IMG/VR virus record: IMGVR_UViG_3300048922_000095 | Coordinates: 1-34,070 of that record | Origin: a virus | DNA length: 34,070 nt | Strand: one strand, 5' to 3' | In this document: positions 1 to 33,794 of the stretch, in pieces | How positions within the stretch are numbered: the first letter of the stretch is position 1 | How the letters are laid out: each line of letters opens with the position of its first letter | The notes under the pieces: model-generated | The model's database searches: none | The model's input: the letters and a program-made list of their open reading frames with translations, nothing else | What the model was told of the DNA's origin: nothing | Translations under genes and position numbers: made by a program

Positions 1-1996
1 GCTGTGTTATGGATTCAATTGCCTGTGCGGTAGTAGAAGGCTCAGAAATATGTTGTAAGGATACACCAAGTTTATCCAATGTAATGAATTTAAGCAGAGT
101 ATCCATGACAGTACTATTACCACCAGAACCACTTCCAGAAGCATTTTCGCTATTCCCCATCTGCACAACTGTTTTAGGAACAATATCAACCGTGGTGTTT
201 TTAATGGCATCTGTTAACTTATCAGTAACCTCCTGAATAACACGGAATTCAGCGCCACCATAGGCTTTGACCTGTGCTTCAATGGCCTGTGCCTTGGCTA
301 GACCTACGTTTGACTCTTTGAAAGCTTCTGCTTCGCCTTCCAACTTGATTTTGGAAGCATTGGCTCTTGCCAGCGCAATGATCTGGTTAGATTCTTGTTC
401 GGCTCGGCTTGCAAGAGCTGCACCATTGTTACCTTCAATTTCAATTTGAATTTTAGATTTGGTGAGGAAACTCTGCTGTTCTGCAATTGCTTGAGCCTCA
501 CGCAGGGATTTTTCGCTTTCCGCTGCAGATTGCTGTTTTTGGTAGGTGACCCTTTTTTCTTCAGCAATCTGTCGTTCCCTAAGCTGCATTAAAATGTTTT
601 CAATTTGGGTATCCGTTACCGTTGTTTTCGGCGTTCCAATTAAAACTTCCTCCAGTTGAAGATTGTATTTCTCAAATTTCTCCTTCATTTCTAAGACTGC
701 GCGCTCACGAATCGCACTACGTTCCTGTATCAGTTCAATAAGAGTTTTCGTCTGCGCTACATCTTTAAAATATGCGCTGACTAACGGATCAAGAGACTGG
801 TTTACCAACATTCCGATATCCCCAAAACGCTGAATGACCCACGGTGCCTGCTTGTAGTCAATATGCATTACAACTGAGAGCGGCAATGAAGGCTCAAATG
901 CATCCTTTGTGATGATATCCACTTCCGTTAGATTTTCATCATACTTATGATCACCAGTTTCGGTTTTGTTCCATTTTAAGATGATATTGGTCGTAGGAAC
1001 AAGCACAACTTTACCCGCATCCGTATTAAAAGCATATTTTCCGGGCATCAGAGGTTTTTCAAGTACACCTTTTGAGCCTACACTAACAAGCTCTCCATGC
1101 TTATAATTCTCTCCCGAGGTATCCACTCCCTCACGACCAAAGAAAGAAACCACAACGCCTACAAATCCAATGGGAACCACTGTTTTAGGCCGAAATTCCA
1201 CAGTAGCAAAAAGGCGATTAATGTAATACGTACCATCTGTTAAAACCTGAATCTGTTTTCCTCGCCTTCCACCAAGCTCCAGAAATTTCTCTGGGTCCTG
1301 AAAGCTGGCATGCTGCTCGCCCATATCTGGAGCGATAATCTCCCCTTGTTGAATAGACGTTCCATCATGCACCGTAACTATGCCCATCATGTCACTGGAC
1401 TCATTGCCTCTGCCCATAATTACCACAGGGGTGAACCCATTCCTTTCAGCCAGGGTTTTTTGCATGCTAACCAGCTCGCTCTGCTCCTGCTTGAAGTTGC
1501 TGGAGATAGATTTTATGGAATTAGGGGTAATTACAATAAACTGAGCTAAATTAATTGCATAGGTACCTTCCCTCAAGATCCCCCTCTGCGGACCACGCTG
1601 TCCACCATTTTTTAGGAATCCTGAAACATCCTGAAAATTATTTGCCTCCTCCACGATACGACCCAGAGTCTGCACCGGGGCAAGAGGAGAACCATCGCGG
1701 GCAAATAAATAGGCTATCTGTCCCTGTGGAATTGTAATAAGGGGGTATTTATGTATTTTGTACATAAGAACGGATTTAAAATGGATTCCACCACGAAGCA
1801 ATCCTGGCGCATATCCAGCTTCCCCGTTGAGAGCAATAATTGAATCTTTAAGAGAACCCTTGGGACTCCACCATTTTTCAACTACAGCTACCTCATTAGA
1901 ACTAATTACTCTTAATCCAAGAATCTTGAAAATGAGCAGGTAAAGCAGTATAACGATTCCTAAAGAAATACCTGCTATGGTTAGCCATTGTTCCAT
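1..1996 (-). CDS. SPFH/flotillin-like membrane protein (C-terminus cut by window edge)
   Basis: The frame stays open from an ATG at 1996 to the left edge (about 665 codons), so the C-terminus is missing. A consensus AGGAGG site lies 8 nt upstream. Residues about 3-24 form one hydrophobic segment (start WLTIAGISLGIVILLYLLIF), then NEVAVVEKWWSPKG, as in the N-terminus of SPFH/Band-7 proteins that scaffold membrane microdomains. The middle carries an SPFH-like stretch with VPTTNIILKWN. From about residue 470 to 590 it is rich in E, A, Q and K with heptad-like spacing, typical of flotillin coiled coils, followed by a Gly/Ser-rich linker (NASGSGSGGNS). It is longer than FloA/FloT and resembles the larger clostridial SPFH proteins. 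It lies downstream of the hydrolase on the same strand. I see no phage character. Family call is confident; the specific role is unknown. Confidence 0.85.
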   Translation of the reverse strand, partial: MEQWLTIAGISLGIVILLYLLIFKILGLRVISSNEVAVVEKWWSPKGSLKDSIIALNGEAGYAPGLLRGGIHFKSVLMYKIHKYPLITIPQGQIAYLFARDGSPLAPVQTLGRIVEEANNFQDVSGFLKNGGQRGPQRGILREGTYAINLAQFIVITPNSIKSISSNFKQEQSELVSMQKTLAERNGFTPVVIMGRGNESSDMMGIVTVHDGTSIQQGEIIAPDMGEQHASFQDPEKFLELGGRRGKQIQVLTDGTYYINRLFATVEFRPKTVVPIGFVGVVVSFFGREGVDTSGENYKHGELVSVGSKGVLEKPLMPGKYAFNTDAGKVVLVPTTNIILKWNKTETGDHKYDENLTEVDIITKDAFEPSLPLSVVMHIDYKQAPWVIQRFGDIGMLVNQSLDPLVSAYFKDVAQTKTLIELIQERSAIRERAVLEMKEKFEKYNLQLEEVLIGTPKTTVTDTQIENILMQLRERQIAEEKRVTYQKQQSAAESEKSLREAQAIAEQQSFLTKSKIQIEIEGNNGAALASRAEQESNQIIALARANASKIKLEGEAEAFKESNVGLAKAQAIEAQVKAYGGAEFRVIQEVTDKLTDAIKNTTVDIVPKTVVQMGNSENASGSGSGGNSTVMDTLLKFITLDKLGVSLQHISEPSTTAQAIESITQ

Positions 1997-2080
1997 ATAT
2001 AATTCCTCCTAATCTAATATTGCTGATACATTTCAATTGGCTTGTGATAAAACATATTATTATAGAAGCTATATTACACA

Positions 2081-2824
2081 TCATCCTATAAAGCCATTGA
2101 CCAGCGCTAGATACTCTTTGCTTCTGGCAAGACTCAGCTCGCCATGTTTCATACCGGGACATTTGCACATCTGAGCCTGAGGAAGAACGCTTATTAGTTT
2201 TCGAGCCGACTGATCCATAACGTTCAGCTCTCTTCCACCAACAACAATCATTACCTTTGCTTTTGAATCCTTAAATTGATCCGGTATGGTGTAGCCTGCA
2301 TTGCTCAAACTAACATTCACCAAAGATTCTTTTGACATTTTTTTACTATCATTATAATATCGATCAAATAAATTATCATTAATGTAAAGAGCCTTTGCCT
2401 GCAATTTTGCAAACCATTTATATTGTATAAGACCATAAAACATTCCGCTGCTCTTAGCCAGAAGGCGTGTTAATCTGCCAGGTGGAATCACCATTGCACT
2501 TTCAATAATGGCGTATTTTGCAATATCCACTCTTCGGGAAAGAACTTCAATGATGATTTGACCCCCTAAAGACAAACCGCATAACGCATGCACATTTCCC
2601 TTACAATTTGTGTCAATATACTGTATGAGCTTTTGAGCCGATTCTTCTATACTTATAAAAGTTGTTTTTCCATCATCTCCATGTCCGTCTATAATCGGAG
2701 TTACAACACGGTATTTCTGCTTTAATATTGGGATTATGTCTGTAAAAGCCCACCAGGAAAGCCCTCCGCCGTGTAACAGAATCATTGTAGGTAGAGCTTT
2801 ATCACCAAACTCTTTAAATATCAC
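2081..2824 (-). CDS. Alpha/beta hydrolase
   Basis: This is a soluble alpha/beta-hydrolase fold protein of about 247 residues if it starts at the GTG at 2824, which has an AGGGGTGAAGG ribosome site just upstream. An in-frame extension to 2971 exists, but its residues look non-coding. Visible motifs are the oxyanion-hole HGGG (LLHGGGLSWW), the nucleophile elbow GLSLGG with the catalytic serine, and a late MKHGE carrying the probable catalytic histidine. The expected acid region reads VVGGRELNV, so the acid may be Glu rather than Asp. Substrate cannot be told from sequence. It precedes the SPFH gene in the same direction with a gap of about 85 nt, so the two may be cotranscribed. Probably chromosomal rather than phage-borne. 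Confidence 0.85.
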   Translation of the reverse strand: MIFKEFGDKALPTMILLHGGGLSWWAFTDIIPILKQKYRVVTPIIDGHGDDGKTTFISIEESAQKLIQYIDTNCKGNVHALCGLSLGGQIIIEVLSRRVDIAKYAIIESAMVIPPGRLTRLLAKSSGMFYGLIQYKWFAKLQAKALYINDNLFDRYYNDSKKMSKESLVNVSLSNAGYTIPDQFKDSKAKVMIVVGGRELNVMDQSARKLISVLPQAQMCKCPGMKHGELSLARSKEYLALVNGFIG

Positions 2825-2971
2825 TTCTGTACCTTCACCCCTTTGCCTATTAAAATATACAGCCAAAATGCAACAATGTGGCGGTATTTTACTCTCTGAC
2901 AAATTACTCCTATTATGTATATTCGCCTGGAATAAGGTTCGTCTATGAGCTTTAAGGCCGTAAAAAATCAC

Positions 2972-3377
2972 TTTTTATAATTCTATCTCCTTTCAAATAG
3001 GACAGATCATTTTTTTCATTAGCCTTAATGCCATATTACTCCTTGTGATACCAAATATCAATATTCATTTTTCAGTGTGTACCTCATTAAAAAAATAATA
3101 TATAATTTACATGATTTATGTCAAAAAACCATCGGATTTCTAATGACAGTTTCTGGCTTTTATCAACAAAATACTATTTACTATGGTGAGTATTATAATA
3201 GGTAGGTATTGCTTCAATTCTTTGGGGGCATATACGATAAATATTAATACCTCCATTATTTACACTTCACAGTTTTTTCACAAATTAGAGAAATGCTTTA
3301 AATACGATAGTTTGTACAGGAATGTTGCATAATACGTTCATATCTTTAAAAATTGAAATTACTTTATTTTCTTTTTT
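2972..3377. other. AT-rich gap at the left junction of the phage element
   Basis: No convincing gene. This gap separates the cellular-type hydrolase from the end of the tape-measure gene. It contains a 12-bp string at 3166-3177 (ACAAAATACTAT) that recurs in the same orientation at 32288-32299, beyond the other end of the phage block. It probably also holds the promoter of the hydrolase/SPFH unit, which I could not place with confidence. Confidence 0.4.
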
Positions 3378-17211: not shown

Positions 17212-17225
17212 AAAATAGCAATTTA
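17212..17225 (+). repeat. Fibre recombination-like site 1 (plus orientation)
   Basis: AAAATAGCAATTTA, matching the site inside the fibre gene (23105-23118) except for one end base, in the opposite orientation. The 12-bp core AATAGCAATTTA encodes N-S-N-L in the cassette frame. Its arms are near-palindromic (TAAAT/ATTTA around AGCA in the fibre copy). Confidence 0.75.
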
Positions 17226-17522
17226 GCAGTACATAAATCTTCTGGAGATCATGACGGCAGGTATTATACGGAGAATGAGATCAATACAAAATTCAACAGT
17301 CTCGTAAAAACTATACCTACCAGTTACACCGGGAATGGCTCCGGCAGAAGAACAATACCAGTATCTAATTTTACTGTTCATGGTTTTTTTATAAAACCAG
17401 CTAACAGCATTAATATATATGGGGGTGACGGGGGAACGAATGGTTATACCGTAACAGCAGAATGTAATCAGTCCGGTGAACCATACTATGTGATCCTGTT
17501 TGGCATCCCAACTAACACTTAA
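17214..17522 (+). pseudogene. Silent tail-fibre C-terminal cassette B (no start codon)
   Basis: A 102-codon open frame begins exactly at the core site and is preceded directly by a TAA, so it has no start of its own. It reads NSNLAVHKSSGDHDGRYYTE, where the GDHDGRYYTE phrase is typical of phage tail fibres. It continues with KTIPTSYTGNGSGRRTIPVS and ends in YYVILFGIPTNT. If joined at the shared N-S-N-L codons to the fibre gene it would replace the last 87 residues and give a 309-residue fibre, in frame. It is convergent with cassette C, their stops only 8 nt apart. I read it as a stored alternative receptor-binding end rather than a dead gene. Confidence 0.7.
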
Positions 17523-17530
17523 ATGATCAT

Positions 17531-17836
17531 TTATGTAATCGTCAATACCTTCCAACCCGTTGCCACTCCACCAACTGTGGCGTGTATATATATTTTCGTA
17601 CTTCCTTTAGGTATGGCTACCACCGTTTGGTAAGAAGCAAACCCCCCTGTTACTAATGCCATACCCTCAGTTCCAGGCGTGACCCCGGCTTTAAATGGTG
17701 TATTTGCTGTGTTGCCGTCCCAATATAAAAATGCACAGGTGTTTTGTGCTATCATTAAATCGGTAGTATAACGTCCGTTACCGAGTATGTTAGACAGGTT
17801 ATTTAAGTTGCTTTGTAAACCTGTTAAATTGCTATT
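17531..17836 (-). pseudogene. Silent tail-fibre C-terminal cassette C (no start codon)
   Basis: A 101-codon frame on the minus strand starts at the inverted copy of the core site, with a stop codon five codons upstream. It reads NSNLTGLQSNLNNLSNILGN, then GRYTTDLMIAQNTCAFLYWD and VAIPKGSTKIYIHATVGG, and ends WKVLTIT. The -TDLM- and GSTKIY phrases and Gly/Thr-rich strands are those of fibre tips. The site sits in the same frame as in the fibre gene, so a join would make a 308-residue fibre. An in-frame internal ATG at 17755 has no ribosome site. Together B and C form one segment bounded by inverted repeats. Confidence 0.7.
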
Positions 17837-17838
17837 TT
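17825..17838 (-). repeat. Fibre recombination-like site 2 (minus orientation)
   Basis: On the minus strand this is AAAATAGCAATTTA, identical over 14 bp to site 1 and inverted to it. The two bound the 0.6-kb segment carrying cassettes B and C. Confidence 0.75.
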
Positions 17839-17855
17839 CATGACAATATTACCAG

Positions 17856-17884
17856 TTTACTTTTCGAACATTAGTTCGTATAAT
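17856..17884 (+). promoter_or_regulatory. SOS-box promoter
   Basis: TTTACT (17856-17861), a 17-nt spacer and a perfect TATAAT (17879-17884). Inside the spacer lies CGAACATTAGTTCG (17865-17878), a perfectly symmetric Gram-positive LexA box of the CGAAC-N4-GTTCG type. Binding there would block the promoter until DNA damage. Confidence 0.8.
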
Positions 17885-17903
17885 TAGGTATGGAGGTGGT
17901 AAA

Positions 17904-18401
17904 ATGCCATCGTTTGGTATAGGGATAAATCCATACAGGCAGAACAACGGCAGCGTCCGGGGAAATACATATCCCATTGCTTGCATGGCTTGGTATGCTC
18001 CGGGACATGCCCCTACGCCGCTCATGCTTAAGTTTGAGGGCCACAACGGGACCATAGAGACAGTAAGCGGCATAAAAGTCTTAAGCTCCTCCAACAAGAA
18101 CTATGACGGGTCTGGTGTGTATGAGTATAATTGTAATGCCATAATCGGCGGTATCCAGTATGGGTTTAAGCTTATCTTCTATATAACGGCGTGTAAGTGG
18201 GTTATGGTTTGTAGCAATAAAAAAGGCGGCTCCGTAAGGATACCGCCTAAATTTTATGATTTATACTCAACAATATCTCCGATATTACAATCCAATATTT
18301 TACACAACCTTTCTAGGGTATGTGTAGAACAATGCATATTTTTCTTTAACCGGCCAATCTGTCCGGGGCTGACCTTGTACTCATTAATTAACCGATATTG
18401 A
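17904..18401 (+). CDS. SOS-controlled unknown protein, 3' end probably altered
   Basis: ATG at 17904 follows GGAGGTGG, 20 nt after the TATAAT of the LexA-type promoter. The first about 105 residues look like a real compact protein (MPSFGIGINPYRQNNGSVRG; YPIACMAWYAPGHAPTPLML; IIGGIQYGFKLIFYITACKW). No stop follows this part. The frame runs through the terminator at 18224-18248 and antisense across the XRE gene to 18401, giving an unlikely 60-residue tail. The original stop was probably lost when the regulator gene was joined here. I recall short uncharacterised clostridial proteins of this style near SOS genes, but cannot confirm that here. Function unknown. Confidence 0.6.
   Translation: MPSFGIGINPYRQNNGSVRGNTYPIACMAWYAPGHAPTPLMLKFEGHNGTIETVSGIKVLSSSNKNYDGSGVYEYNCNAIIGGIQYGFKLIFYITACKWVMVCSNKKGGSVRIPPKFYDLYSTISPILQSNILHNLSRVCVEQCIFFFNRPICPGLTLYSLINRY
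18224..18248 (-). terminator. Terminator of the second XRE gene
   Basis: AGGCGG pairs with CCGCCT, with an inner TCC/GGA stem and a GTAA loop. On the minus strand a run of six T residues follows. It lies 6 nt past the stop of the regulator gene. Confidence 0.8.
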
Positions 18402-18451
18402 GTTATACCTTTTCTTCGCATAATATTCCAAAGTTTATCATAAGTGATCAT
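18254..18451 (-). CDS. XRE-family HTH regulator (65 aa)
   Basis: Start ATG at 18451 has TAGGAGGCTTGATT before it; a longer frame to 18487 lacks a ribosome site. The protein is a single HTH domain (MITYDKLWNIMRRKGITQYR, VSPGQIGRLKKN, LERLCKILDCNIGDIVE), a type very common in Lachnospiraceae genomes and prophages. It sits between the amidase and the SOS-controlled ORF and has its own terminator. Its target is unknown; nearby palindromes at 19309-19320 and 16909-16926 are candidates. Confidence 0.85.
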   Translation of the reverse strand: MITYDKLWNIMRRKGITQYRLINEYKVSPGQIGRLKKNMHCSTHTLERLCKILDCNIGDIVEYKS

Positions 18452-18514
18452 AATCAAGCCTCCTAGCCTTTTATGAGTATTATACAATAAGATGTAGTCT
18501 AATTGTTGCTGCTT

Positions 18515-19282
18515 TTAAAATCCTCCTATCTTCTGTGCTCCTTGCTGATCGGTCACATATAGCGCACATTCCAAATCGTGCCCTGCCCTGGGTTCGAAAT
18601 AATACCACTTGCCGTCTATCTCTTGCCAGTCAGTGAGGGCATATCCGTCCTCGTTAAAATAATACTTATGGCCATTTATGACCTGCCAGCAAGATTTATA
18701 ATAAGTAGTCTTAGTGTCTGCGTACCACCAGCCATTTTTATCCTGATTCCACCACAAGGTGTATTCCGTCGGTCTATCCACCAGAGCTACTTTAAATGAG
18801 TCCCAGGTATGTTTTGTGTGATTGTAGACATAAGGATTGGGGCATATTTTCCCTGTGACATCGTGGTGCCGGATCACGTGGTCCGCAGGTATGTTGTACT
18901 TTGCCATCAGATCCTTGGTCAGCGCAATGGCAGCCTGTACAGTAGCGTCCTCGAAATACCAGTCCCGGCTCGTATCTGCCATGGAGCCTTTATTTCGGAC
19001 GCACATTTCAATACCGATGCTATTTGCATTACGACATTCAGGATGCACGTACTTTTTTGCTCCGCAATGCCAGGCAATGTTTTTATCCTCAACGGACTGC
19101 CAAATCTCGCCGTTAAATCCCACGTAATAGTGTGCGCTAGCTCCGATGTATTGTGAGGCGTAGTATTTGCAGTTTGCCTCTGCTCCTCCCAGAGCTCCTA
19201 CATAATGAATTACAATATATCTGATTCGGCTAAGTTCGCCGTCTGTATAGTTATATGGTGTTAATAATTGATGGATTTCCAT
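18515..19282 (-). CDS. Endolysin: N-acetylmuramoyl-L-alanine amidase with cell-wall-binding repeats
   Basis: A 255-residue lysis enzyme that cuts the bond between muramic acid and the stem peptide. The N-terminal amidase_2 domain has the zinc ligands in IVIHYVG (H26), RHHDVTGKICPNP (H139/H140 with C147 nearby) and the NSIGIEM phrase near 88-94. Residues about 180-255 are Trp/Tyr/Gly-rich repeats (GHKYYFNEDGYALTDWQEID; GKWYYFEPRAGHD) of the choline/glucan-binding type. There is no signal peptide, so release depends on the holin encoded just upstream. Complete and apparently intact. Confidence 0.95.
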   Translation of the reverse strand: MEIHQLLTPYNYTDGELSRIRYIVIHYVGALGGAEANCKYYASQYIGASAHYYVGFNGEIWQSVEDKNIAWHCGAKKYVHPECRNANSIGIEMCVRNKGSMADTSRDWYFEDATVQAAIALTKDLMAKYNIPADHVIRHHDVTGKICPNPYVYNHTKHTWDSFKVALVDRPTEYTLWWNQDKNGWWYADTKTTYYKSCWQVINGHKYYFNEDGYALTDWQEIDGKWYYFEPRAGHDLECALYVTDQQGAQKIGGF

Positions 19283-19308
19283 ATTAGTATCCTCCTTTAA
19301 AATCGAAA

Positions 19309-19320
19309 CGGGAATTCCCG
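19309..19320. repeat. 12-bp palindrome between holin and amidase genes
   Basis: CGGGAATTCCCG is a perfect palindrome in the short gap upstream of the amidase. It shares the CGGAATTCC-type centre with the larger palindrome at 16909-16926 and could be a second, weaker operator. Confidence 0.3.
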
Positions 19321-19328
19321 CATCGGAA

Positions 19329-19622
19329 TTATTCGGTTTTCATGGTCTGTTTAATGAGCTGATTTACATATGTACTCAGGCCTGCGACCAGAACCCCCTG
19401 TGTAATGGCTGTAAATGCAACCATAGCTATTTCCTGCCCCGTCTGGTGGTCGCTTGTAGCCAGAACATAGATTCCGCAAAGCGCAATACCAACAACTCCG
19501 TTAACGAGTGGAATGTATTTATCCTTAATTGTTTGGCTCTGCTTAATTCCAATCCCCATAAAATAAAGCACCACCGCCACTATAATAAGTTCAGGCTTTA
19601 CATAACTCATAATCTGTTCCAT
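19329..19622 (-). CDS. Phage holin
   Basis: A 97-residue membrane protein with AAGGAGATTG before the ATG. Hydrophobic stretches lie at about residues 12-26 (LIIVAVVLYFMGIG), 38-55 (VNGVVGIALCGIYVLA) and 66-84 (IAMVAFTAITQGVLVAGLS). The C-terminus is short and charged (KQTMKTE). This is the general form of a clostridial phage holin that forms membrane lesions so the amidase can escape. It sits directly between the XhlA-like protein and the amidase. Confidence 0.85.
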   Translation of the reverse strand: MEQIMSYVKPELIIVAVVLYFMGIGIKQSQTIKDKYIPLVNGVVGIALCGIYVLATSDHQTGQEIAMVAFTAITQGVLVAGLSTYVNQLIKQTMKTE

Positions 19623-19626
19623 GATA

Positions 19627-19848
19627 TCAATCTCCTTTATCTTCTAAGTCCGCTATGCGGTGATTTGCAACTTTCATCTGTTCCTCAAGTATGAAAGTGC
19701 GTTCAATAACAGTGTTATGTTTGTCGACTTTCTTTTCCAATTGCCCTATGCGATAATTGGTCAGTTTGGAAGAAGCCACTATTCCAGCAAAAGTCCCTAA
19801 CCCACTTCCTGCCAATCCAACGAGAGCTACCATAAGTTCCGTAGGCAT
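19627..19848 (-). CDS. Holin-associated XhlA-like membrane/coiled-coil protein
   Basis: A 73-residue protein with one N-terminal hydrophobic segment (LMVALVGLAGSGLGTFAGIV) followed by a charged coiled coil (QLEKKVDKHNTVIERTFILE). The B. subtilis PBSX XhlA protein has the same two elements in opposite order and works with a holin. Start has GTGAGGTAAG upstream. Role inferred from position in the lysis cassette. Confidence 0.65.
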   Translation of the reverse strand: MPTELMVALVGLAGSGLGTFAGIVASSKLTNYRIGQLEKKVDKHNTVIERTFILEEQMKVANHRIADLEDKGD

Positions 19849-19867
19849 ATACTTACCTCACGCTTTC

Positions 19868-19999
19868 CTAATTTTTAGTTGCCAGAATTTCTTTCTTTTG
19901 ATCATCAGATATCCAGCCTTTAATAACCGCATTTGCCAGCATGGTGACCGTCAATTTACCTTTTCCACCTTCATATAACCACATTAACATTTCAAACAT
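19868..19999 (-). CDS. XkdX-like small phage protein (43 aa)
   Basis: ATG at 19999 has GGAGGTGT 5 nt upstream; the stop is TAG. It reads MFEMLMWLYEGGKGKLTVTM and ends VIKGWISDDQKKEILATKN. The length, the hydrophobic-aromatic start and the phrase on a Gly-Trp/Tyr-Ile followed by a charged helix match the XkdX family, tiny proteins between tail fibre and holin genes in Firmicute phages. Function is not known. Confidence 0.7.
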   Translation of the reverse strand: MFEMLMWLYEGGKGKLTVTMLANAVIKGWISDDQKKEILATKN

Positions 20000-20001
20000 A
20001 T

Positions 20002-20427
20002 TTACACCTCCAGGCTTGATAATAATAAAGTTCCAACAGTTGCCTTTAAGGATTCATTATCTTTTTTAATTTCCGCATTCTCTGCTTCCAGTGCCGCTAT
20101 TCTTTCGGTCAGATCTGGAGTTTTAAATATGGCAATCATTACAGCAGCTGTAATGTCCGTTACTCCGTCATCTGCTTTACCTATTACATAATTAGCATCT
20201 CTTGACATGAAATCACCATACACCAGATCAGCCCGTGACCAGTCTGTATCACCCGATATGGCAATCTGCTTGATAGTGCCGTTGGCCTGCAGGATATCTT
20301 CAATTTCTTCAAAGGTCTTATCTCCCATCTGAAATTTGATGGTTCCTCCATCAGCTTCAAGATTCACACCTGCAGCAACCAGATCAAATGTCTGCTCGCC
20401 GAATTTGATTTTTTCAATATTGCTCAT
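20002..20427 (-). CDS. Phage protein with C-terminal coiled coil, unknown function
   Basis: A 141-residue protein (MSNIEKIKFGEQTFDLVAAG, then EEIEDILQANGTIKQIAISG) with AAAGGAATTAAT upstream of the ATG. The last about 35 residues form a coiled coil (RIAALEAENAEIKKDNESLK). Proteins of this form are common next to the XkdX-like gene in clostridial prophages and are probably tail-associated. No catalytic motif is seen. It ends 2 nt before the XkdX-like start, so they are one operon. Confidence 0.6.
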   Translation of the reverse strand: MSNIEKIKFGEQTFDLVAAGVNLEADGGTIKFQMGDKTFEEIEDILQANGTIKQIAISGDTDWSRADLVYGDFMSRDANYVIGKADDGVTDITAAVMIAIFKTPDLTERIAALEAENAEIKKDNESLKATVGTLLLSSLEV

Positions 20428-20463
20428 ATTAATTCCTTTCTGTCCTTTTGGACATAAAAATAA

Positions 20464-20525
20464 GAGCCTTTTGGCTCCTTACTATTTTAGTGGTAGAAAA
20501 TAGAGAGGCGAATATCGCCCCTCCT
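20464..20525 (-). terminator. Tandem hairpins after the kelch gene
   Basis: Two hairpins follow the kelch stop. At 20505-20523 GAGGCGA can pair with TCGCC..CTC. At 20464-20477 GAGCC pairs with GGCTC around TTTT, and on the minus strand TTATTTTTATG follows. They isolate the kelch gene from the lysis genes. Confidence 0.7.
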
Positions 20526-20543
20526 GATATGTACTGCTTATAT

Positions 20544-22106
20544 TTATGCTCTTACTCTTACATATATCTTACCAATGACATTCCCGTCTTCATCTTTGGC
20601 TGTAAATAAGACTAATCCTTTTTTCAGTGCTGTAACCTTTCCTTTGCTAGTTACATTAGCGATTGCTGAATCCATTGGTTCCCATGTAGCATTCACTGTA
20701 TTTGTTAAATCATCAACGGTAAGTCTAGCTGACTGGCCAATTTTTAAATCGATTGCTAATCTGTAATCTCCGGCGTCTTCAACAACTAATACGTTAATGT
20801 AGTCCGTATAGGTATTGTCTGGGCTTTTTACTGTTATTACAGTATTTCCAGGTGCTAATGCTGTTACCACACCTTTTTCATTTACTGTTGCAACAGTGTT
20901 GTCTGATGATGTCCAGGTCATATTTGTATTTTCATCTAAATGATCGTCAACGCTTAACTGAAGCTTTTCCTCTGGCTCTAGTACTACTTTTATTTGTTTA
21001 TTTGGACTGGCAGGTAGCCTATATATTTCCATTGAAGAGGTATTCCCTCCTATAGCATATATATTCCCATTTATTACTTGAGTTTGGAACATATACCTTT
21101 CTACAGACATAGGTACTAATTGTGTCCATTTATCAGTCAATATATCATAAACCTCTACACTACTATTCTCGTAGCCTCCAATTACATATATTTTTCCATC
21201 TACAAATTCCGATTCAGAATAGAAAAACTTATCTTGTAACATTGCTGATAATGTTGCCCATTCATTTTTTATTGGATCATAGACTTCTACAATTTTATTG
21301 TTTTCTCCACCATTACTTCCTCCACTAACATATATTTTTCCATTTACAACTTCTGATTGAAAAAAACTTCTTTTTACAGACATAGGCGTTAATTCGGTCC
21401 ATATATCAGTAGATGGATCATAGACTTCTACTGACTCTGTACGATTAGTACTAGTTCTACCTCCCATAGCATATATTTTCCCATTTAATTCTTTTGTTTG
21501 GAAATTTTCCCTTGCTACGGACATCGATGCTAATGTTTTCCATATATTTGTTGATGGGTCGTAGACTTCTACAGATTTTAAATAATTACTACCTCCTCCA
21601 CTTCCTCCAATAACATATATTTTCCCATCAATTACCTCTGTTTGGAAACTACCTCTTGCTACGGACATCGATGTTAATGTCGTCCATATATTAGTTGATG
21701 GGTCATAGACTTCTACAGATTTTAACGGTGTTTGATTATATCCTGTATATCCTCCGATAGCATATATTTTCCCATCTATTACCTTTGTTTGAAAATAGTT
21801 TCTGGCATTATTCATTGGTGCTAATAAAGTCCATATATTTGTTGATGGGTCATAGACTTCTGTGGATTTAAAAAATGTATTATCTTGTCTATTTATTCCC
21901 CCAATAGCATATATTTTCCCATCTATTACTTCTGTTCGAAATTCGCTCCTTTTTTGAGACATTGGCGCTAAAGCTTCCCAATTTGTCATCTCGTTATCTG
22001 CTAATGCAATTGTATTTGGAAAAATAATCATAACTAATAAAAATAGTGTTATCCCCCATATTTTTACCAATCCTGCTTTTGTTTTAATTTCCAATTCCTT
22101 ACTCAT
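20544..22106 (-). CDS. Secreted seven-blade kelch protein with two Ig-like (Big2) domains
   Basis: A 520-residue exported protein; ACGGAGGATAATT precedes the ATG. Residues about 14-37 are a signal peptide (IWGITLFLLVMIIFPNTIAL). From about 40 to 370 come seven kelch repeats with EVIDGKIYAIGG and VEVYDPSTNIWT; the first NWEALAPM strand closes the last blade. Two Big2 modules follow (MTWTSSDNTVATVNEKGVVT; GKVTALKKGLVLFTAK). No LPXTG anchor is present. It has its own promoter and terminators between fibre and lysis genes, so it looks like a cargo gene expressed from the lysogen. A surface-binding role is likely but unproven. Confidence 0.85.
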   Translation of the reverse strand: MSKELEIKTKAGLVKIWGITLFLLVMIIFPNTIALADNEMTNWEALAPMSQKRSEFRTEVIDGKIYAIGGINRQDNTFFKSTEVYDPSTNIWTLLAPMNNARNYFQTKVIDGKIYAIGGYTGYNQTPLKSVEVYDPSTNIWTTLTSMSVARGSFQTEVIDGKIYVIGGSGGGSNYLKSVEVYDPSTNIWKTLASMSVARENFQTKELNGKIYAMGGRTSTNRTESVEVYDPSTDIWTELTPMSVKRSFFQSEVVNGKIYVSGGSNGGENNKIVEVYDPIKNEWATLSAMLQDKFFYSESEFVDGKIYVIGGYENSSVEVYDILTDKWTQLVPMSVERYMFQTQVINGNIYAIGGNTSSMEIYRLPASPNKQIKVVLEPEEKLQLSVDDHLDENTNMTWTSSDNTVATVNEKGVVTALAPGNTVITVKSPDNTYTDYINVLVVEDAGDYRLAIDLKIGQSARLTVDDLTNTVNATWEPMDSAIANVTSKGKVTALKKGLVLFTAKDEDGNVIGKIYVRVRA

Positions 22107-22148
22107 AATTATCCTCCGTTTAATATTAAATATTTAAGGCAAATACTA

Positions 22149-22177
22149 AGTATATCTTATATGGTAATATTTTCCAA
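22149..22177 (-). promoter_or_regulatory. Promoter of the kelch gene
   Basis: On the minus strand TTGGAA (22177-22172), a 17-nt spacer and TATACT (22154-22149), about 42 nt upstream of the kelch ATG. Confidence 0.6.
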
Positions 22178-22211
22178 GTACTTTTGTTTACTAAATAGCA
22201 AAACTGTATTC

Positions 22212-22240
22212 TTGCTTTCCTCTCTTATTTTCCATATAAT
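22212..22240 (+). promoter_or_regulatory. Promoter of the 77-residue plus-strand ORF
   Basis: TTGCTT (22212-22217), a 17-nt spacer and a perfect TATAAT (22235-22240). It is divergent from the kelch promoter. A small GGTG/CACC hairpin lies at 22251-22264 in the leader. Confidence 0.65.
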
Positions 22241-22290
22241 AGTAACTACAGGTGGTTGCGCACCGAGTACATAAGAAAGGAGAACTCATT

Positions 22291-22524
22291 ATGATCAATG
22301 TCCATGCTGTATGGAGTTATGAAGGCGAGACTATTTATAGGGATTATGCGCGCATAGATAAAGCAATATATTTCAACAAAGATGGTAGACAAATTATTAC
22401 TGGTGATGATGTATTGACTCATATTTTCCCATTAAATGCAATAATCTATTTCCAGGGTCCCGATTGTAACTATGTAATAAATCCCCATAATCTTATTTCT
22501 TTAGAGATTAACAAACAGCGTTAA
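22291..22524 (+). CDS. Unknown 77-residue plus-strand protein
   Basis: ATG at 22291 follows AAGGAGAACTCATT; a longer frame to 22252 has no ribosome site. It reads MINVHAVWSYEGETIYRDYA, then FNKDGRQIITGDDVLTHIFP and ends LISLEINKQR. It looks like a small beta-rich soluble protein. It has its own promoter and runs against the surrounding phage genes. Its end overlaps the end of the convergent 90-residue gene by 4 nt. I do not recognise the family; together with the kelch gene it forms a two-gene cargo island. Confidence 0.6.
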   Translation: MINVHAVWSYEGETIYRDYARIDKAIYFNKDGRQIITGDDVLTHIFPLNAIIYFQGPDCNYVINPHNLISLEINKQR

Positions 22525-22793
22525 TGTGTTTGCATGATTGTTTGGTATATTAATACCATGCTACGGCTGATTTCTGCAATTCCCTGATCAGTACATGCTC
22601 TTTCGGATCTCTCCGCTAACAGTTCTAATTGTTGGCGGAGAATTTCTTTTTCTTTTTCTGCGCAATTGTCTGAATTATGCAAAGAATCTAATAGCTGTTT
22701 TACCTCTAACAATGTTTCTTTTAGCAAATTCGCTTTCTCTAATGTTTCTTCAATTCCATTACATCTTAATTCCATATTGATTGTTTTATCCAT
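22521..22793 (-). CDS. Small coiled-coil phage protein
   Basis: About 90 residues from the ATG at 22793, which has AAAGGAATTAATT before it; the longer frame to 22850 would start inside a fibre recombination-like site. The protein is almost all helix, with NLLKETLLEVKQLLDSL and EKEKEILRQQLELLAERSER. Placed right after the tail fibre gene, it may be a fibre assembly factor, but nothing in the sequence proves that. Confidence 0.6.
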   Translation of the reverse strand: MDKTINMELRCNGIEETLEKANLLKETLLEVKQLLDSLHNSDNCAEKEKEILRQQLELLAERSERACTDQGIAEISRSMVLIYQTIMQTH

Positions 22794-22840
22794 AATAATT
22801 AATTCCTTTCTGCTGTTTTCGGACAGCTCCGGATCTAAGT

Positions 22841-22855
22841 TAAATAGCAATTTTA
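22841..22855 (+). repeat. Fibre recombination-like site 3 (plus orientation)
   Basis: TAAATAGCAATTTTA, the same element with one extra T, overlapping the stop codon of the fibre gene and inverted to site 4. Read on the plus strand after the site it gives only NSNFKK and a stop, so inverting segment A alone would leave a truncated fibre. Confidence 0.65.
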
Positions 22856-23737
22856 AAAAGTGACAATTGGCTTGTTACTAATGATATTTCCACCAGAATC
22901 AACTTTTACAGCAATTAACCCAGTGTCACTTAATACTATCTCTGTAATACTACCGTCTTGCATATAATTAGCAATTATCGTTCCGTAATCTACGGTGCTG
23001 TTAGAATTTTTAAGTATTTCTGTAAAACCAATGTTTCCATTAACCTGTAAATGCAAACGATCACCACGAGGAAAAGCGTTCCCATGATTATTTATTACGT
23101 TCGTTAAATTGCTATTTAGTGCATTAAGCCCAGCCGTCAAATTCGCTCCTATCGTCAGCTCATCGCCCATGCCAATACGCTCTGCCAGCTTATGTACATA
23201 AGCCGCAGAATTGACTTTAGTGGAATCATTGACATCCATATTAGTAAGCATTGATTTAAGCAGGGCATTTTCGTTTAACCCCATTGTCACGGCTATGGAC
23301 TTGGAAATTTTGCCGAGTGCTGTAGCAATAGCCTCCCCTGCTATGATGTTGGCCAATTCTGTGGCCTGTGTGAAGAGCGTGTTTACATCAATGCTACCAT
23401 CAGCCCCCACCTTAATTCCGTTACTCCCCTTTACCAACCCCAGAGCGTCCTGCAAGGCTGTCTTTACACTCATACTACCGTCAGTACTGACCTCCGTTGT
23501 TGTGCCGTCTGGCTTAACCGTTCCCACGCTACTAGCCGTAGCCTTGCCGGTTCCCTGAGCTGATACCTGCCAATAGTCTAAATCTGTTGGAAGAGTCCCT
23601 GCAGGCGGTTTTGTATGCACCACATAGCTGCTACCGTCAAAGGATACTAAATTTAATATGTCATACGTCTTGTCAGGATCAAACTCCTCCGCTGGCAGCA
23701 TCCCTATTGTGCCATAAATTACTTCTGTTTCGTCCAT
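22853..23737 (-). CDS. Tail fibre protein with exchangeable C-terminus
   Basis: A 294-residue fibre whose ATG shares the A of the preceding stop (TAATG). The N-terminus (MDETEVIYGTIGMLPAEEFD, YDILNLVSFDGSSYVVHTKP) is a Gly/Tyr-rich attachment module of the kind that starts many Firmicute fibre proteins. A Gly/Thr/Asp-rich shaft and an Ala/Ile-rich helix follow. At codons 208-211 the string NSNL is encoded by the element AATAGCAATTTA, and the 87 residues from codon 208 on form the current variable end. The same element, in the same frame, opens two silent cassettes at 17214-17836. This gene is the likely expression locus of the system. The fibre family is clear; receptor is unknown. Confidence 0.8.
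   Translation of the reverse strand: MDETEVIYGTIGMLPAEEFDPDKTYDILNLVSFDGSSYVVHTKPPAGTLPTDLDYWQVSAQGTGKATASSVGTVKPDGTTTEVSTDGSMSVKTALQDALGLVKGSNGIKVGADGSIDVNTLFTQATELANIIAGEAIATALGKISKSIAVTMGLNENALLKSMLTNMDVNDSTKVNSAAYVHKLAERIGMGDELTIGANLTAGLNALNSNLTNVINNHGNAFPRGDRLHLQVNGNIGFTEILKNSNSTVDYGTIIANYMQDGSITEIVLSDTGLIAVKVDSGGNIISNKPIVTF
23105..23118 (-). repeat. Fibre recombination-like site 4 inside the fibre gene
   Basis: On the minus strand this is TAAATAGCAATTTA, a 14-bp imperfect palindrome (TAAAT-AGCA-ATTTA). It is the only copy within an intact gene, at fibre codons 207-211, and marks the boundary between constant and variable parts. Confidence 0.75.
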
Positions 23738-24855
23738 TAAGTTGCAATCTCCTTTCCTATAAACTTACCAGCGTCCAGTCGGAAACTCATACCTTTAGCC
23801 AAGAAGTTACTTTTTAGTTGCATTGTTTTCATATCAATCCGAAACTGAGGGATAGACATTTTAGTGACTTGATCAATTTGCTTTTTTAGATCCTGCACCT
23901 GCTGCCAATACCACCTTGCGTTATCTTTCGCATCTTCCGGAACAACTCCACCATGAGTAAGGCTTTTGGCTTTTAATGCACTGGCCTGAGCTTCCTCTGC
24001 GCTCTGATTTGCCGCTGTCTGGCTTACTCCTGCTTGGGTTGCCTTATCTCTTGCAATCTGCTCACTTACTCCTGCTGCCGTTGCTTTTTCAGTAGTAATT
24101 AATACGTCTGCCGCGGTTTTGTTTGCCGCTGCCGTTGCCGCTGAAGCTTTTTGAGTTGAAATAGTCTTTTGTTCTTCTGCGAATTCTGCACTGTCTGCCG
24201 CTGCCTGGGCATTCTGGCCAGAAGTTTCTGCATCCGCTTTTGTCTGCTCATAATAATACTTTGCGTTATCGGTTTCACTACCGGGAAACTCCTGATCTCC
24301 TAGGGTGTACCGCTTTGCAAACTTCTGATACTGGAGAGCTGCGTCCCGTGCTGATTGAGTATCCAACATGTATTGTCTGAATTCCGTCTGTATGGAAGCG
24401 TCCAGCTTACTCATGGTTACAGAGCCGTCTACGATCTCAGCGGTAATGGTCCTGTTTAAGATTTTCATAGAAATAGTTGGCGTACTATCCACAGTGTAAA
24501 CGAACCGGGTAAGGTCAATTATTTTCTGAGAGCCGTCTGCCAGAGTAAGAACGAGTTGATTTTGATCGTTAATATCGAAGTTTACTACAACCTTTTCAAT
24601 GTCCAGATCATAAGTTTTCACAGTCCCATTTTGATAGGTTATTGTTAATATTCCGGTATCAGCATCAACCGTGATATCTTTTACCAAAGTATTTACTAAA
24701 GCAATGGAAGCCTTTTCAGCATCTAATTGGACCGCTCTTTTGTCCAGCTCTTCAATACCATTCTCTGAATTAAGTAAATTTTTCCGATTTAGTGGCGTAT
24801 CCTGTGAAGGAAGATTTTTATAATCAGTTTTATTGTAGAATCTTTGTAAGGCCAT
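23737..24855 (-). CDS. Tail fibre/baseplate protein with Ala-rich coiled coil
   Basis: A 372-residue protein (start MALQRFYNKTDYKNLPSQDT, with AATGGCC context and AAGAAGGTG upstream). Residues about 60-165 form a beta-rich head with TVKTYDLDIEKVVVNFDIND. A long Ala/Thr/Gln-rich coiled coil (about 190-310, ASAATAAANKTAADVLITTE) follows, then a short end. The composition is standard for trimeric fibre shafts. It begins just after the 58-residue ORF and ends in a TAATG overlap with the variable-tip fibre gene, so the two are co-translated and probably stacked in one fibre. Confidence 0.8.
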   Translation of the reverse strand: MALQRFYNKTDYKNLPSQDTPLNRKNLLNSENGIEELDKRAVQLDAEKASIALVNTLVKDITVDADTGILTITYQNGTVKTYDLDIEKVVVNFDINDQNQLVLTLADGSQKIIDLTRFVYTVDSTPTISMKILNRTITAEIVDGSVTMSKLDASIQTEFRQYMLDTQSARDAALQYQKFAKRYTLGDQEFPGSETDNAKYYYEQTKADAETSGQNAQAAADSAEFAEEQKTISTQKASAATAAANKTAADVLITTEKATAAGVSEQIARDKATQAGVSQTAANQSAEEAQASALKAKSLTHGGVVPEDAKDNARWYWQQVQDLKKQIDQVTKMSIPQFRIDMKTMQLKSNFLAKGMSFRLDAGKFIGKEIAT

Positions 24856-26147: not shown

Positions 26148-26912
26148 TTATTTATGTGTATCTAATTTTATGGAAGCAGCTGTATCATGAAAACCCTGCA
26201 TTTCAGAGTCCCAAAATCCCATTTCCATTAAGATCTCTTTTGTTTCATTATAATCTTCATCATCTAAAATGATAGTTGCCATAAAAGCACTATATTCTGC
26301 CGTGGGCTGTGCCATCTTTAAAATATCTTTGATTCCATTCACAATTCTACTCTTATTGTATTGTTTACCGTCATTTCTGTTTTTCAATTCTACTGCTTTT
26401 TTATGAATATCATTTAGCTTATATCTCATCATATCCACTATTAATAATCTTGGATTTACTAGTCTATCACGATTATTCAGGTCTAACAATTCCACAGTTT
26501 CCCGTCCTTTACTGTCTAAAGCATTATCTTTACTCTTAATATAAAAATGATTAAGATATAAATAATTCTTTGGATCGTCATCTGTAGGATTTAACAGAGA
26601 ATAAACTTTCGTATCCAGAGTTCCTTTGTTAGAATTACATTGACTACAAGATGGTAGCAAATTATTCCAATCAACTACTTCATCTGGGTAATCATCTTTG
26701 CAATGAAAATGTTCGACATGCATTGGCCTACCTTGAGTTTCTAAAGCTGTTTCACAATAACAGCACTTTTTATGAGACATACTCAATAATCTTTCTACTA
26801 TATAAGGTTGCCTCCATACTGCTTTTTTAGTGTTTTTAAAATCCGAAACTAATTCTTTTTCCTTTTCTTCTGTTAATTCAATCGGTTTTTCGGGGCGTAT
26901 TAATTTAATCAT
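26148..26912 (-). CDS. ptuB: Septu-like HNH nuclease (PtuB-type)
   Basis: A 254-residue protein that begins 2 nt after the ATPase stop. The N-terminal half is an HNH/retron-type nuclease domain: CCYCE (50-54), HVEHF (65-69), VDWNNLLPSCSQCNSNKG (80-97) with paired CxxC motifs binding zinc. The C-terminal half is helical (MRYKLNDIHKKAVELKNRND, NETKEILMEMGFWD) and probably contacts the ATPase. AAA-ATPase plus HNH with no reverse transcriptase fits the Septu antiphage system, in which the ATPase holds the nuclease inactive until infection. Catalytic and zinc residues all look intact. Confidence 0.8.
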   Translation of the reverse strand: MIKLIRPEKPIELTEEKEKELVSDFKNTKKAVWRQPYIVERLLSMSHKKCCYCETALETQGRPMHVEHFHCKDDYPDEVVDWNNLLPSCSQCNSNKGTLDTKVYSLLNPTDDDPKNYLYLNHFYIKSKDNALDSKGRETVELLDLNNRDRLVNPRLLIVDMMRYKLNDIHKKAVELKNRNDGKQYNKSRIVNGIKDILKMAQPTAEYSAFMATIILDDEDYNETKEILMEMGFWDSEMQGFHDTAASIKLDTHK

Positions 26913-26914
26913 CT

Positions 26915-28075
26915 CTACTCCTCCAAGCCTGCCATTTGGATTTTCAAGAGCTTCCGTTGCGTACTATTTGGATGAAGCATTTTATCCAATAACTCATAAT
27001 TCTTTTTTATTTCTGAAATATTTTCTTCCATCATGGCTTTATCAAAAGCAGCCATGGTTACTTTAAAAACTTCCGAAGTCGTGCTTGGCATTCCCATTAC
27101 ATCTTGCAAAATTTCTTCAAGCGTCCAGCCTTGTAGGCCATATTCGCCTAATTTCAATTCCTTCACAAAAGTATTCCCATTCTGATCTAAGTCCAATGCA
27201 ATTATTTCATCTTTATTAAGGCTTTGTAAAATACTTGGACTGTGAGTAGTTGCAATTATCTGCGCTTTAGTAAAAATGTTTTTTAAAGCTTTAACTAATT
27301 GAGCCTGCCATGTTGGATGTAAGTGTAAATCAATCTCATCAATTAAAATCACTCCATCAAAGTCTTTAGCAGAAACTTTATCCTGTTTAAATCTATACTC
27401 TATTTCTTTAATGATACCAAGTACAATATAAATACACGTTCTATAACCCGACGATAAATATTCAAACAAAATATCTCCTTTTTTTGTTTCAAGAATAATA
27501 TCGTAAGTGGATCCATTTACACTCTTAAATCGCACACTATTATCAATGATACTAAAGTTGTTTTTTGCTATTTCATAGTTTTCCTTTTGCTCATCAGAAA
27601 CACTTCCTGGTCTATCAACAAATGCAAATCTATTTACAAACCAATTCTTAATATCAACTGCCGACACTTCAATGCCATGCCTATCTTTATAATCGTAAGA
27701 AGGGTCACCGGAAAGATTATCTAACTTCTTATACTTAATATCCCTATCAGAACCAAAATTTAAAACGTAGTTTTTGAATTGAGTTTGAATTGGAGACATA
27801 CTATTATTTTTTTCCGCAGGCTCTGAACTATTAACTACCGTCTTTAATTCAGCCCAACTTCCATCAAAAACACCATGAATAACCACGCTTCCTTCACTAG
27901 AATTCACATTTTTTTTTATGTTTCCACTAAAGACAAAAAAGTCATTAATACAGTTTAATATGGTTGTCTTTCCAATTCCATTAGCGCCACAAATGACATT
28001 CAAACCGTCATTGAAATTAAGAGACAATTCTTTTATTCCTCCAACACCCTGAATCTCTAAGCTTTCAATCCTCAT
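26915..28075 (-). CDS. ptuA: Septu-like AAA ATPase (PtuA-type)
   Basis: About 386 residues from the ATG at 28075, chosen for its GAGGGGGATAAA ribosome site. It is an AAA_15/SMC-like ATPase: Walker A GANGIGKTT (30-38), a signature-like LSSGYR near residue 206, Walker B VILIDEIDLHLHP (about 243-255) and THSPS of the H-loop (about 277-281). The C-terminal residues are charged helices. Related ATPases sense infection and control a partner nuclease. The HNH gene follows at once. An upstream terminator and its own promoter (28116-28144) make the pair a self-contained transcription unit inserted among tail genes. Confidence 0.8.
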   Translation of the reverse strand: MRIESLEIQGVGGIKELSLNFNDGLNVICGANGIGKTTILNCINDFFVFSGNIKKNVNSSEGSVVIHGVFDGSWAELKTVVNSSEPAEKNNSMSPIQTQFKNYVLNFGSDRDIKYKKLDNLSGDPSYDYKDRHGIEVSAVDIKNWFVNRFAFVDRPGSVSDEQKENYEIAKNNFSIIDNSVRFKSVNGSTYDIILETKKGDILFEYLSSGYRTCIYIVLGIIKEIEYRFKQDKVSAKDFDGVILIDEIDLHLHPTWQAQLVKALKNIFTKAQIIATTHSPSILQSLNKDEIIALDLDQNGNTFVKELKLGEYGLQGWTLEEILQDVMGMPSTTSEVFKVTMAAFDKAMMEENISEIKKNYELLDKMLHPNSTQRKLLKIQMAGLEE

Positions 28076-28115
28076 TTTATCCCCCTCGTGTATGACCATT
28101 ATATTTGGTATTATT

Positions 28116-28144
28116 ATATTATCACCACCCATAGTCTAAATCAA
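28116..28144 (-). promoter_or_regulatory. Promoter of the Septu-like pair
   Basis: On the minus strand TTGATT (28144-28139), a 17-nt spacer and TAATAT (28121-28116), about 40 nt upstream of the ATPase ATG. The terminator at 28204-28223 lies just upstream. Confidence 0.65.
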
Positions 28145-32268: not shown

Positions 32269-32609
32269 GTTTTATCAAAAAAAAGAGACAAAATACTATG
32301 ACTTCCTTTTTGCTAAGGTCAACAAAATTTCTGCTACTAAATAAAAAATTTTTTATTCAAAAAACAATAAATTTATTTATATAAATACATATTTCATTTA
32401 TTAATGGTAAGTATATTAATATAATCATATTAACAAGATTAAATAATCATTTTTCTAATAATTAAAATTATAAAGTATTATTAATATTTTTTTATTAAAT
32501 TAAATAATATTTTATATCACATATATTATTATATTATAGTTTATTATTTTTGTTAATGATTTATAGAAATGGAGATTCTAAATTAAATCAATTTTTTAAG
32601 GAGGTTATT
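32269..32609. other. Extremely AT-rich gap at the right junction
   Basis: No gene is visible. From about 32340 to 32560 the sequence is almost entirely A and T, far above the rest of the window, which suggests imported DNA. It contains the 12-bp repeat ACAAAATACTAT (32288-32299) shared with 3166-3177, and must hold the promoter of the plus-strand gene that follows, although the base bias prevents a firm call. Confidence 0.5.
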
Positions 32610-33794
32610 ATGGCAAGTATTGAAGAAATGTTAAATGGAGCAACTGCACAATATTTTAATGCACTTACTTCGAGTTTAAATTTGGATAGGTATAAATTTC
32701 AAATTATTTCACCAAGTATGCCTTTAGGTGAAACGTCAGATAGCATCTGGCAATTTTTTAATAACATACCACCAAAATCATTAATTAACAAATTTGATTT
32801 ATCAGGCGGCAATAAGTTTTACGATAATTATCGAGGTGCTTTATCATCTCTATTAGTTGCTGGTGGTAATAGAATCAAATTTATATTAGGTGATGACTAT
32901 GAAGATTGGTACAACTATTTAATCGGTTTAAATCCATTACCCACACCTCAAGAACTTCCTGATATATGTTTTAGATGGACCAGTATCCATGTACCAGATA
33001 AAGCTACTCCTTCAAGAAACGAATATGCGCGACAACTTAATAATCCAATAGGTATTGCACAATATTCCGTACTTGACCAAAACAACTTTATTAATGGGAT
33101 TCCAAATTTTAGCAGAAATTTAGATGACCTTAGATCTGCTATCACTCAGTCAAGCTCAAGTACTATAACTTATGATAGTTCAAATTATTCATCAGATGTT
33201 ACTGATACAAGGTCTGGTGGCAGTTTAAGTGGCTTTTATAAGACTTTTTTTGCTTCTGGTGATACCAATTCTTCTTCCTTGACAGAGAAAATATTGAGTA
33301 ACGGAATAAATGTTGACATTAAATTCGATAAAGTATGTATCTTCAGCGCTGCTCCAGGTTCCTGGTATTTATCCTCTGCTTTAAATATAGCATATAATAC
33401 TAAAGATAATACTGTTTGGGCTCCCGGAGCCAAGCCTGATTGGGAAGATTTTTTTGGTGAAAACGGTAGTATGTGTAGATTTTTAACTTCATTAATTGTA
33501 GTTGACGGAATTACACAGACTATAACATCTCATTCGTCATATTCGCTAGATGAAATTGATAATTATAATTCTGCAGCTTCTGGTGGTGTATGGCCATTTT
33601 TTAGTGCAGGTGGAGGCAGAAGTTTCTCGCATGAAGTAAAAATCAACAATAAAAATGAACTTGAGATTACAGTAAGTGCTCCTCTAGGAAACCCCTTGAT
33701 AATTGGTGCCAATGTCACAGATGTCAATTCTTTTTTAGGTGGAGGTCTGTTTTTTGTAATGGATCTTATTAAAAGTGGGGCAATAACAGTATAA
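32610..33794 (+). CDS. Unrecognised 394-residue protein
   Basis: Start ATG at 32610 (MASIEEMLNGATAQYF) follows TTAAGGAGGTTATT. No signal peptide or membrane segment. The N-terminal half is mixed alpha/beta with DSIWQFFNNIPPKSLINKFD and FILGDDYEDWYNYLIGLNPL. The centre is Ser/Thr-rich (TQSSSSTITYDSSNYSSDVT). The C-terminal half has CIFSAAPGSWYLSSALNIAY, SGGVWPFFSAGGGRSFSHEV and ends near PLIIGANVTDVNSFLGGG. It is AT-rich, stands alone on the plus strand, and is followed by a strong terminator and an insertion sequence, so it looks acquired. I cannot place it in a family. Confidence 0.75.
   Translation: MASIEEMLNGATAQYFNALTSSLNLDRYKFQIISPSMPLGETSDSIWQFFNNIPPKSLINKFDLSGGNKFYDNYRGALSSLLVAGGNRIKFILGDDYEDWYNYLIGLNPLPTPQELPDICFRWTSIHVPDKATPSRNEYARQLNNPIGIAQYSVLDQNNFINGIPNFSRNLDDLRSAITQSSSSTITYDSSNYSSDVTDTRSGGSLSGFYKTFFASGDTNSSSLTEKILSNGINVDIKFDKVCIFSAAPGSWYLSSALNIAYNTKDNTVWAPGAKPDWEDFFGENGSMCRFLTSLIVVDGITQTITSHSSYSLDEIDNYNSAASGGVWPFFSAGGGRSFSHEVKINNKNELEITVSAPLGNPLIIGANVTDVNSFLGGGLFFVMDLIKSGAITV

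Follow-up and report, generated by a model that had tools for sequence, protein, structure and literature searches.

Organization of the Locus

The stretch of DNA studied here, called the window throughout, comprises all 34,070 nucleotides of IMG/VR record IMGVR_UViG_3300048922_000095, a 34 kb prophage fragment with relatives of the Lacrimispora/Hungatella type; its source is a prophage of a gut bacterium. It contains a tail-fibre gene in which a short sequence element separates a constant N terminus from a variable C-terminal cassette, a second copy of that element at the 3′ end of the gene, and, on the far side of the lysis genes, two further copies enclosing a pair of silent cassettes (Table 1). 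The initial annotation, made from the sequence without database searches, had described four copies in alternating orientation, one of them within the fibre gene as codons for N-S-N-L, and two open, start-less frames, each preceded by a stop, that would join the fibre in frame. All of this was recovered at the same places, cassettes A and B yielding fibres of 309 and 308 residues, respectively, when joined at the site. Its proposal that these elements mediate a shufflon-like exchange of fibre C termini is the subject of our analysis.

The length of 14 bp originally assigned to the element was only partly upheld: the four copies are real, but the core common to all relatives is the 10-bp TAAATAGCAA, the TTTA being usual yet variable. 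Three of the four window copies match AATAGCAATTTA exactly, and the copy at 22841 (+) ends in TTTT; taken as a 12-mer, three copies are exact, and a single mismatch sets apart the fourth (AATAGCAATTTT, at 22843, +). For the exact 13-mer AAATAGCAATTTA, the window gave three occurrences and the controls none, and across six whole bacterial genomes it is found mostly as site pairs at fibre genes. A scan of the window for the 12-mer with two mismatches was uninformative, with 11 hits found against 10.7 expected. Site 2, which has no cassette, has a counterpart in the relative L018, and its inversion against site 1 is predicted to leave a truncated fibre of 213 amino acids.

Table 1. Features of the fibre locus in the window
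Feature	Coordinates	Strand	Remarks
Active tail-fibre gene	22853..23737	-	294 aa; constant N terminus, codons 1-207; variable C terminus from codon 208
Active C-terminal cassette	22853..23116	-	87 codons counted from N-S-N-L
Site 1, TAAATAGCAATTTA	23105..23118	-	within fibre gene, codons 208-211, N-S-N-L
Site 2, TAAATAGCAATTTT	22841..22854	+	inverted; fibre gene 3′ end; cassette-less
Site 3, AAAATAGCAATTTA	17212..17225	+	
Site 4, AAAATAGCAATTTA	17825..17838	-	
Silent cassette A	17214..17522	+	102 codons; start-less; stop immediately upstream
Silent cassette B	17531..17836	-	101 codons; start-less; upstream stop
Small open reading frames (ORFs)	18515..20427	-	between cassette groups; ORF 20002-20427 matches phrog_12931
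Amidase-like ORF	18515-19282	-	between cassette groups; putative, labelled from sequence and position
Small holin-like ORF	19329-19622	-	between cassette groups; putative, labelled likewise
Fibre-associated protein	23737..24855	-	372 aa; conserved; upstream; part of the constant context

Fibre Ends Swapped at a Strictly Conserved Site

Scans with the fibre protein retrieved relatives from IMG/VR and from genomes named Lacrimispora xylanisolvens, Hungatella sp., and others. Wherever the sequence of a relative continues across the junction, its constant part ends at N-S-N-L (N-S-D-L in L017) and the C terminus that follows is wholly different; the window fibre itself shares 73–88% of its amino acids with the relatives through codon 211 and none beyond. 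The initial annotation had proposed comparing related prophages for fibre ends exchanged at the same codons; such exchanged ends occur in 14 related fibres. When 25 cassettes are aligned, N-S-N-L is their sole common part, and Pfam and PHROGs add little information, a single one of the 25 matching an H-type lectin domain. The same site is also found beside unrelated fibre N termini (G012 C8, G289, G230, G207, and L108–L114). A DNA search of a phage collection returned weak partial matches only.

The layout recurs as well. In most relatives, a silent cassette, open in the same frame, faces the active one; several have a second facing pair 6–9 kb away, beside the portal gene, and in some other phages a recombinase gene lies between the two pairs. 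The sites alternate in orientation (+,-,+,-) in all eight four-site loci examined (the window, G015, G003, G006, G008, L109, G316, and L110). The gene order shared by the window and its relatives, Dit-Tal-fibre-lysis-portal-capsid-tape measure, is itself unusual. Two variations on the arrangement were seen: the early region of the G015 prophage (C1, 486667-487189) contains a further facing pair of sites, its third, with cassette-like frames at a distance of 20 kb from the fibre, and L001 (10948-12033) has a gene for an acyltransferase-3-like protein of 361 amino acids between the fibre and tail chaperone genes, where silent cassettes and the lysis genes would be expected.

Conservation of the site goes beyond what the protein would demand. 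In a comparison of 57 sites that bear a cassette, neither AAATAG nor the A at position 9 ever varies, and CA hardly does; L110 and G207 retain just the 10-bp core. Across the 14 fibres, none of 351 comparable codon pairs at the site differ synonymously, as against 997 of 2,070 (48%) in the 36 codons upstream, which excludes simple conservation at the protein level. The centre of the site, where it varies from one phage to another, is the same in the copies of a given phage (AGTA at each of the three sites in L108 and AGCG at both fibre-proximal sites in L017), as would be expected if strand exchange requires identical centres.

Natural inversions were found between relatives. G315 (IMGVR_UViG_3300043094_000143) and G316 (IMGVR_UViG_3300035516_000911) have in common an 810-bp cassette pair, 99.75% identical, that is inverted in one relative to the other with respect to their common lysis-side flank and has both its ends in sites; a cassette of 92 amino acids lies silent behind the recombinase in G316, and in G315 it forms an in-frame fusion with the fibre. 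The flanks are only 81–89% identical, so the two are related phages and not one clone. As the left flanks keep their position and the right halves move with the cassette, the exchange can be placed within TAAATAGCAA. In L108, a single contig, one 54-bp stretch (the site and 40 bp) stands behind two different flanks, and L112 matches L114 over 7,909 bp with two mismatches, up to its end inside a site through which L114 continues. Contig ends fall within 120 bp of a site in 5 of 14 cases (0.15 expected; 20,000 simulations never gave as many as 5), and such breaks are what would be expected where the reads hold alternative junctions.

A Candidate Recombinase

The enzyme behind the fibre shuffling is likely a family of XerA/XerD-like tyrosine recombinases, a type of gene that the initial annotation had marked for a wider search. 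Relatives with the window's architecture encode a 345-amino-acid Xer-like tyrosine recombinase, distinct from the integrase, about 30 kb upstream of the array; in some other phages it adjoins the array directly. Searching with the 14-mer alone led to G289, an independent genome in which an unrelated fibre gene has a facing site pair and, 166 bp from that pair, a homologue of the recombinase; here and among close relatives from IMG/VR that share the site (L108, L109, L111, L113, and L114), the recombinase lies within the array. The gene and the sites also occur in the same phage or genome in G001, G003, G006, G007, G008, G012, G014, G207, and G230; the homologues of G230 and G207 share a genome with the site, that of G207 even a prophage. 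The catalytic residues R-K-H-R-H-Y are invariant in 12 of 12 homologues and the predicted fold is Xer-like, with a predicted local distance difference test (pLDDT) score of 83; against the XerA, XerD, and XerC models, the family stays below the cut-offs, except for the G289 protein, which passes XerA. Raw co-occurrence among 299 family genomes is weak (14-mer in 11, recombinase in 29, both in 3), as most single 14-mer matches look like chance, and we used physical linkage in its place. Phage integrases were rejected as the shuffling enzyme, being of unrelated families in different site-bearing phages, and a small tyrosine recombinase of 192–217 amino acids in G006 and G008 was set aside as absent from the other site-bearing phages.

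Proposed Mechanism and Alternatives

We conclude, with a probability of roughly 90%, that the locus is a tail-fibre shufflon run by a XerA/XerD-like tyrosine recombinase. The exchange of fibre C termini proposed at the outset is supported by the swapped ends, the facing silent cassettes, the inverted pair, and the contig breaks; in the relatives, the ends are swapped at one codon, the site is strictly conserved, a silent and an active cassette have traded places by inversion, and the recombinase lies within arrays. Under such a mechanism, the constant fibre N terminus of 207 codons would end at a recombination site (core TAAATAGCAA, usually TAAATAGCAATTTA) and alternative start-less C termini of ~80–130 codons would be stored tail to tail, in pairs, between inverted sites, with the recombinase exchanging strands inside the core. 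Inversion within a pair would swap its two cassettes, while an inversion that spans from the fibre site to the distal pair would bring the distal cassettes to the fibre; in the window, inversion between sites 3 and 1 would also flip the region 18515..20427. A second, larger inversion could restore the genes in between, lysis genes in the window and the recombinase elsewhere, while exchanging whole pairs, and the geometry of the sites suggests that pairs are exchanged by two such larger inversions in succession. The window phage presumably encodes, or is served by, this recombinase and undergoes inversion, and the cassettes are probably receptor-binding tips, the exchange of which would change the host range, that is, the cells to which the phage binds. 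The structure predicted for the window fibre is too poor for use (mean pLDDT 40.5) and gives hints only that the N-S-N-L site may lie in a long helix preceding beta strands.

Several observations weigh against this reading. The natural inversions come from G315/G316 and the double junction of L108, and none was seen in the window's own phage. As first noted, the 34 kb of the window contain no recombinase, although the fragment is without the region that holds the gene in its closest relatives. In the window's clade, the gene is far from the array, adjoining a region of the late-regulator/terminase type, and its link to the array there rests on homology and co-occurrence. The family is missing from several complete-looking site-bearing prophages (G005, G009, G011, G013, and G016), which are then either locked or served in trans, the gene of G015 is broken, and G054 has a close homologue of the recombinase and no detectable site.

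These observations bear on two variants of a genuine switching module. One supposes that the phage carries sites and cassettes only and that the recombinase acts in trans, from the host or a co-resident prophage. The prophages with sites and no family member (G005, G009, and G011/G013/G016) would fit, as would G012, where the C16 prophage has the recombinase and the C8 prophage does not, and an inverted locus without a recombinase has been reported in bifidophages (PMC6109161); however, among site-bearing phages with the same architecture as the window, the majority encode their own recombinase, other phages have it inside the array, and we consider this variant unlikely. The other supposes a fossil, its fibre locked in one state after the recombinase was lost or broken. 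Here G315, whose 37.6 kb include no member of the family, may be a locked derivative, the split gene of G015 offers a second precedent, and site 2 of the window lacks a cassette. Against this, both silent cassettes, A and B, have entirely open frames and intact sites, and since the recombinase region lies outside the fragment, its absence provides no basis for judgement; we place the fossil on the unlikely side without dismissing it.

Two further explanations would deny the module or change its enzyme. Mosaic fibre ends are common among phages, and the repeats could be mere conserved fibre codons, an N-S-N-L heptad of a coiled coil, the ends differing through ordinary mosaicism by homologous recombination; a chromosomal fibre-like ORF in G011 indeed bears a tandem K-V-N-S-N-L repeat. 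This was also the refuting case envisaged in the initial annotation, and it is contradicted by the lack of synonymous change at the four codons, next to neighbours that vary at 48%, and by the 810-bp inversion, which is exact and begins and ends in a site. Copies of the site moreover precede start-less silent frames in inverted orientation, and recombinase genes lie inside arrays, making conserved codons a highly improbable explanation. Classical phage fibre switches use serine invertases, and one of the Gin/Cin/Min type might be thought to drive the inversion; a search for the corresponding domain, PF00239, found nothing in the window or in 8 of the 10 records covered, and the two matches sit in large open frames of 485–551 amino acids. 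We rejected the serine invertase and regard its chance of being the enzyme as negligible.

Relation to Known Shufflons

Judged from published descriptions, the closest functional match is the Rin shufflon, reported in prophages of Bifidobacterium (PMC6109161) and in clade 1 prophages of Eggerthella lenta (PMC8778435). Both systems have a constant N terminus of the receptor-binding protein with start-less, interchangeable C termini at a short in-frame repeat, both show natural inversions between sites (here G315/G316 and L108), and the relatives of the window share with Rin a XerD-like tyrosine recombinase that has no arm-binding domain and is not the integrase. They differ in the site, TAAATAGCAATTTA against the rix sequences TTCCCTAACCC and ttccgtat as printed in PMC6109161 and PMC8778435; in the facing pairs, which here form two groups with lysis genes or the recombinase in between, in phages of Firmicutes; and in the array-flanking recombinase, found in G289 and L108–L114 and not in the window's clade, where it lies ~30 kb upstream. 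The site and the two-pair layout are new relative to Rin; the search for earlier accounts covered the open-access literature, and the absence of a prior report there does not prove the system novel.

The initial annotation compared the locus with R64 and with Mu/P1; the mechanism is closer to the tyrosine-recombinase Rin shufflon than to R64 Rci or the serine invertases. The R64 shufflon (Rci, IncI plasmids) likewise combines multiple inverted segments, a constant N terminus with alternative C termini, and a tyrosine recombinase. Each of its sfx sites combines a core of 7 bp with a conserved right arm of 12 bp (PMC11852207), an architecture that we did not find; R64 acts on a pilus adhesin, whereas the site here is 10–14 bp and lies in a phage fibre. 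Phage tail-fibre ends are also inverted by Mu Gin, P1 Cin, and p15B Min, but those are serine recombinases, and none is associated with this site. By the features compared, the system is neither of the Rci nor of the serine-invertase kind.

The closest relatives of the array-borne recombinase appear to shuffle bacterial restriction-specificity genes at a near-identical site. In the annotated phage collection, they show 42–44% identity and lie beside type I restriction-modification genes, several inside hsdS arrays. Shufflons of hsdS with the site TAAATGATAATTTA occur in MT838471, MT835621, and genomes G118 and G119, and together with a related recombinase at L137, L139, L141, and L142; pneumococcal PsrA/cod provides a functional parallel (PMC7096588). 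The hsdS site shares with the fibre site the outer arms TAAAT....ATTTA and the reading N-x-N-L, and differs in the middle codon, GAT against AGC, giving N-D-N-L (within the hsdS motif I-N-D-N-L) instead of N-S-N-L. As in the fibre arrays, the four sites of the G118 system alternate and the recombinase lies between the pairs, while the target genes are hsdS and the recombinases form a separate branch; no Methylase_S match was found in the fibre gene and cassettes. The tree comprises two fibre lineages and one hsdS lineage, all apart from a phage integrase, with several deeper forks unresolved. Tentatively, and at somewhat less than even odds, one Xer-like family with arms TAAAT....ATTTA may serve both fibre shufflons (AGCA, N-S-N-L) and type I specificity shufflons (GATA, N-D-N-L), the modules being evolutionary siblings and recombinase-less prophages switchable in trans; hypothetically, it is the central codon that might set the identity of the system.

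Other Features of the Window

An ORF starting MPSFGIGINPYRQ adjoins the distal cassettes (17904-18401, +) and has a homologue in the same place in G007 (429-746). Between the lysis and fibre genes lies a 520-amino-acid protein with Kelch repeats and bacterial Ig-like domains (20544-22106, -). A PtuA/PtuB pair (Septu antiphage defence) is inserted among the tail genes (26148-28132, -), and also at the corresponding place in G015. Host-like DNA with an SPFH/flotillin-like frame and an alpha/beta hydrolase follows directly after the tape-measure gene (1-3300), and an ORF of 414 amino acids on the opposite strand (32550-33794, +) matches no family in Pfam, PHROGs, or PADLOC.

Implications

With this system, gut phages of Firmicutes join the few known carriers of tyrosine-recombinase receptor shufflons, and the short, defined site allows direct searches. 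Should the cassettes prove to be receptor-binding tips, host-range prediction from a single genome is incomplete, given the several fibres that one prophage encodes. The hsdS connection suggests that attack, through the phage tip, and defence, through restriction specificity, are diversified by sibling recombinases acting on sites one codon apart, which poses a testable question of orthogonality and possibly offers a new small-site recombinase tool.

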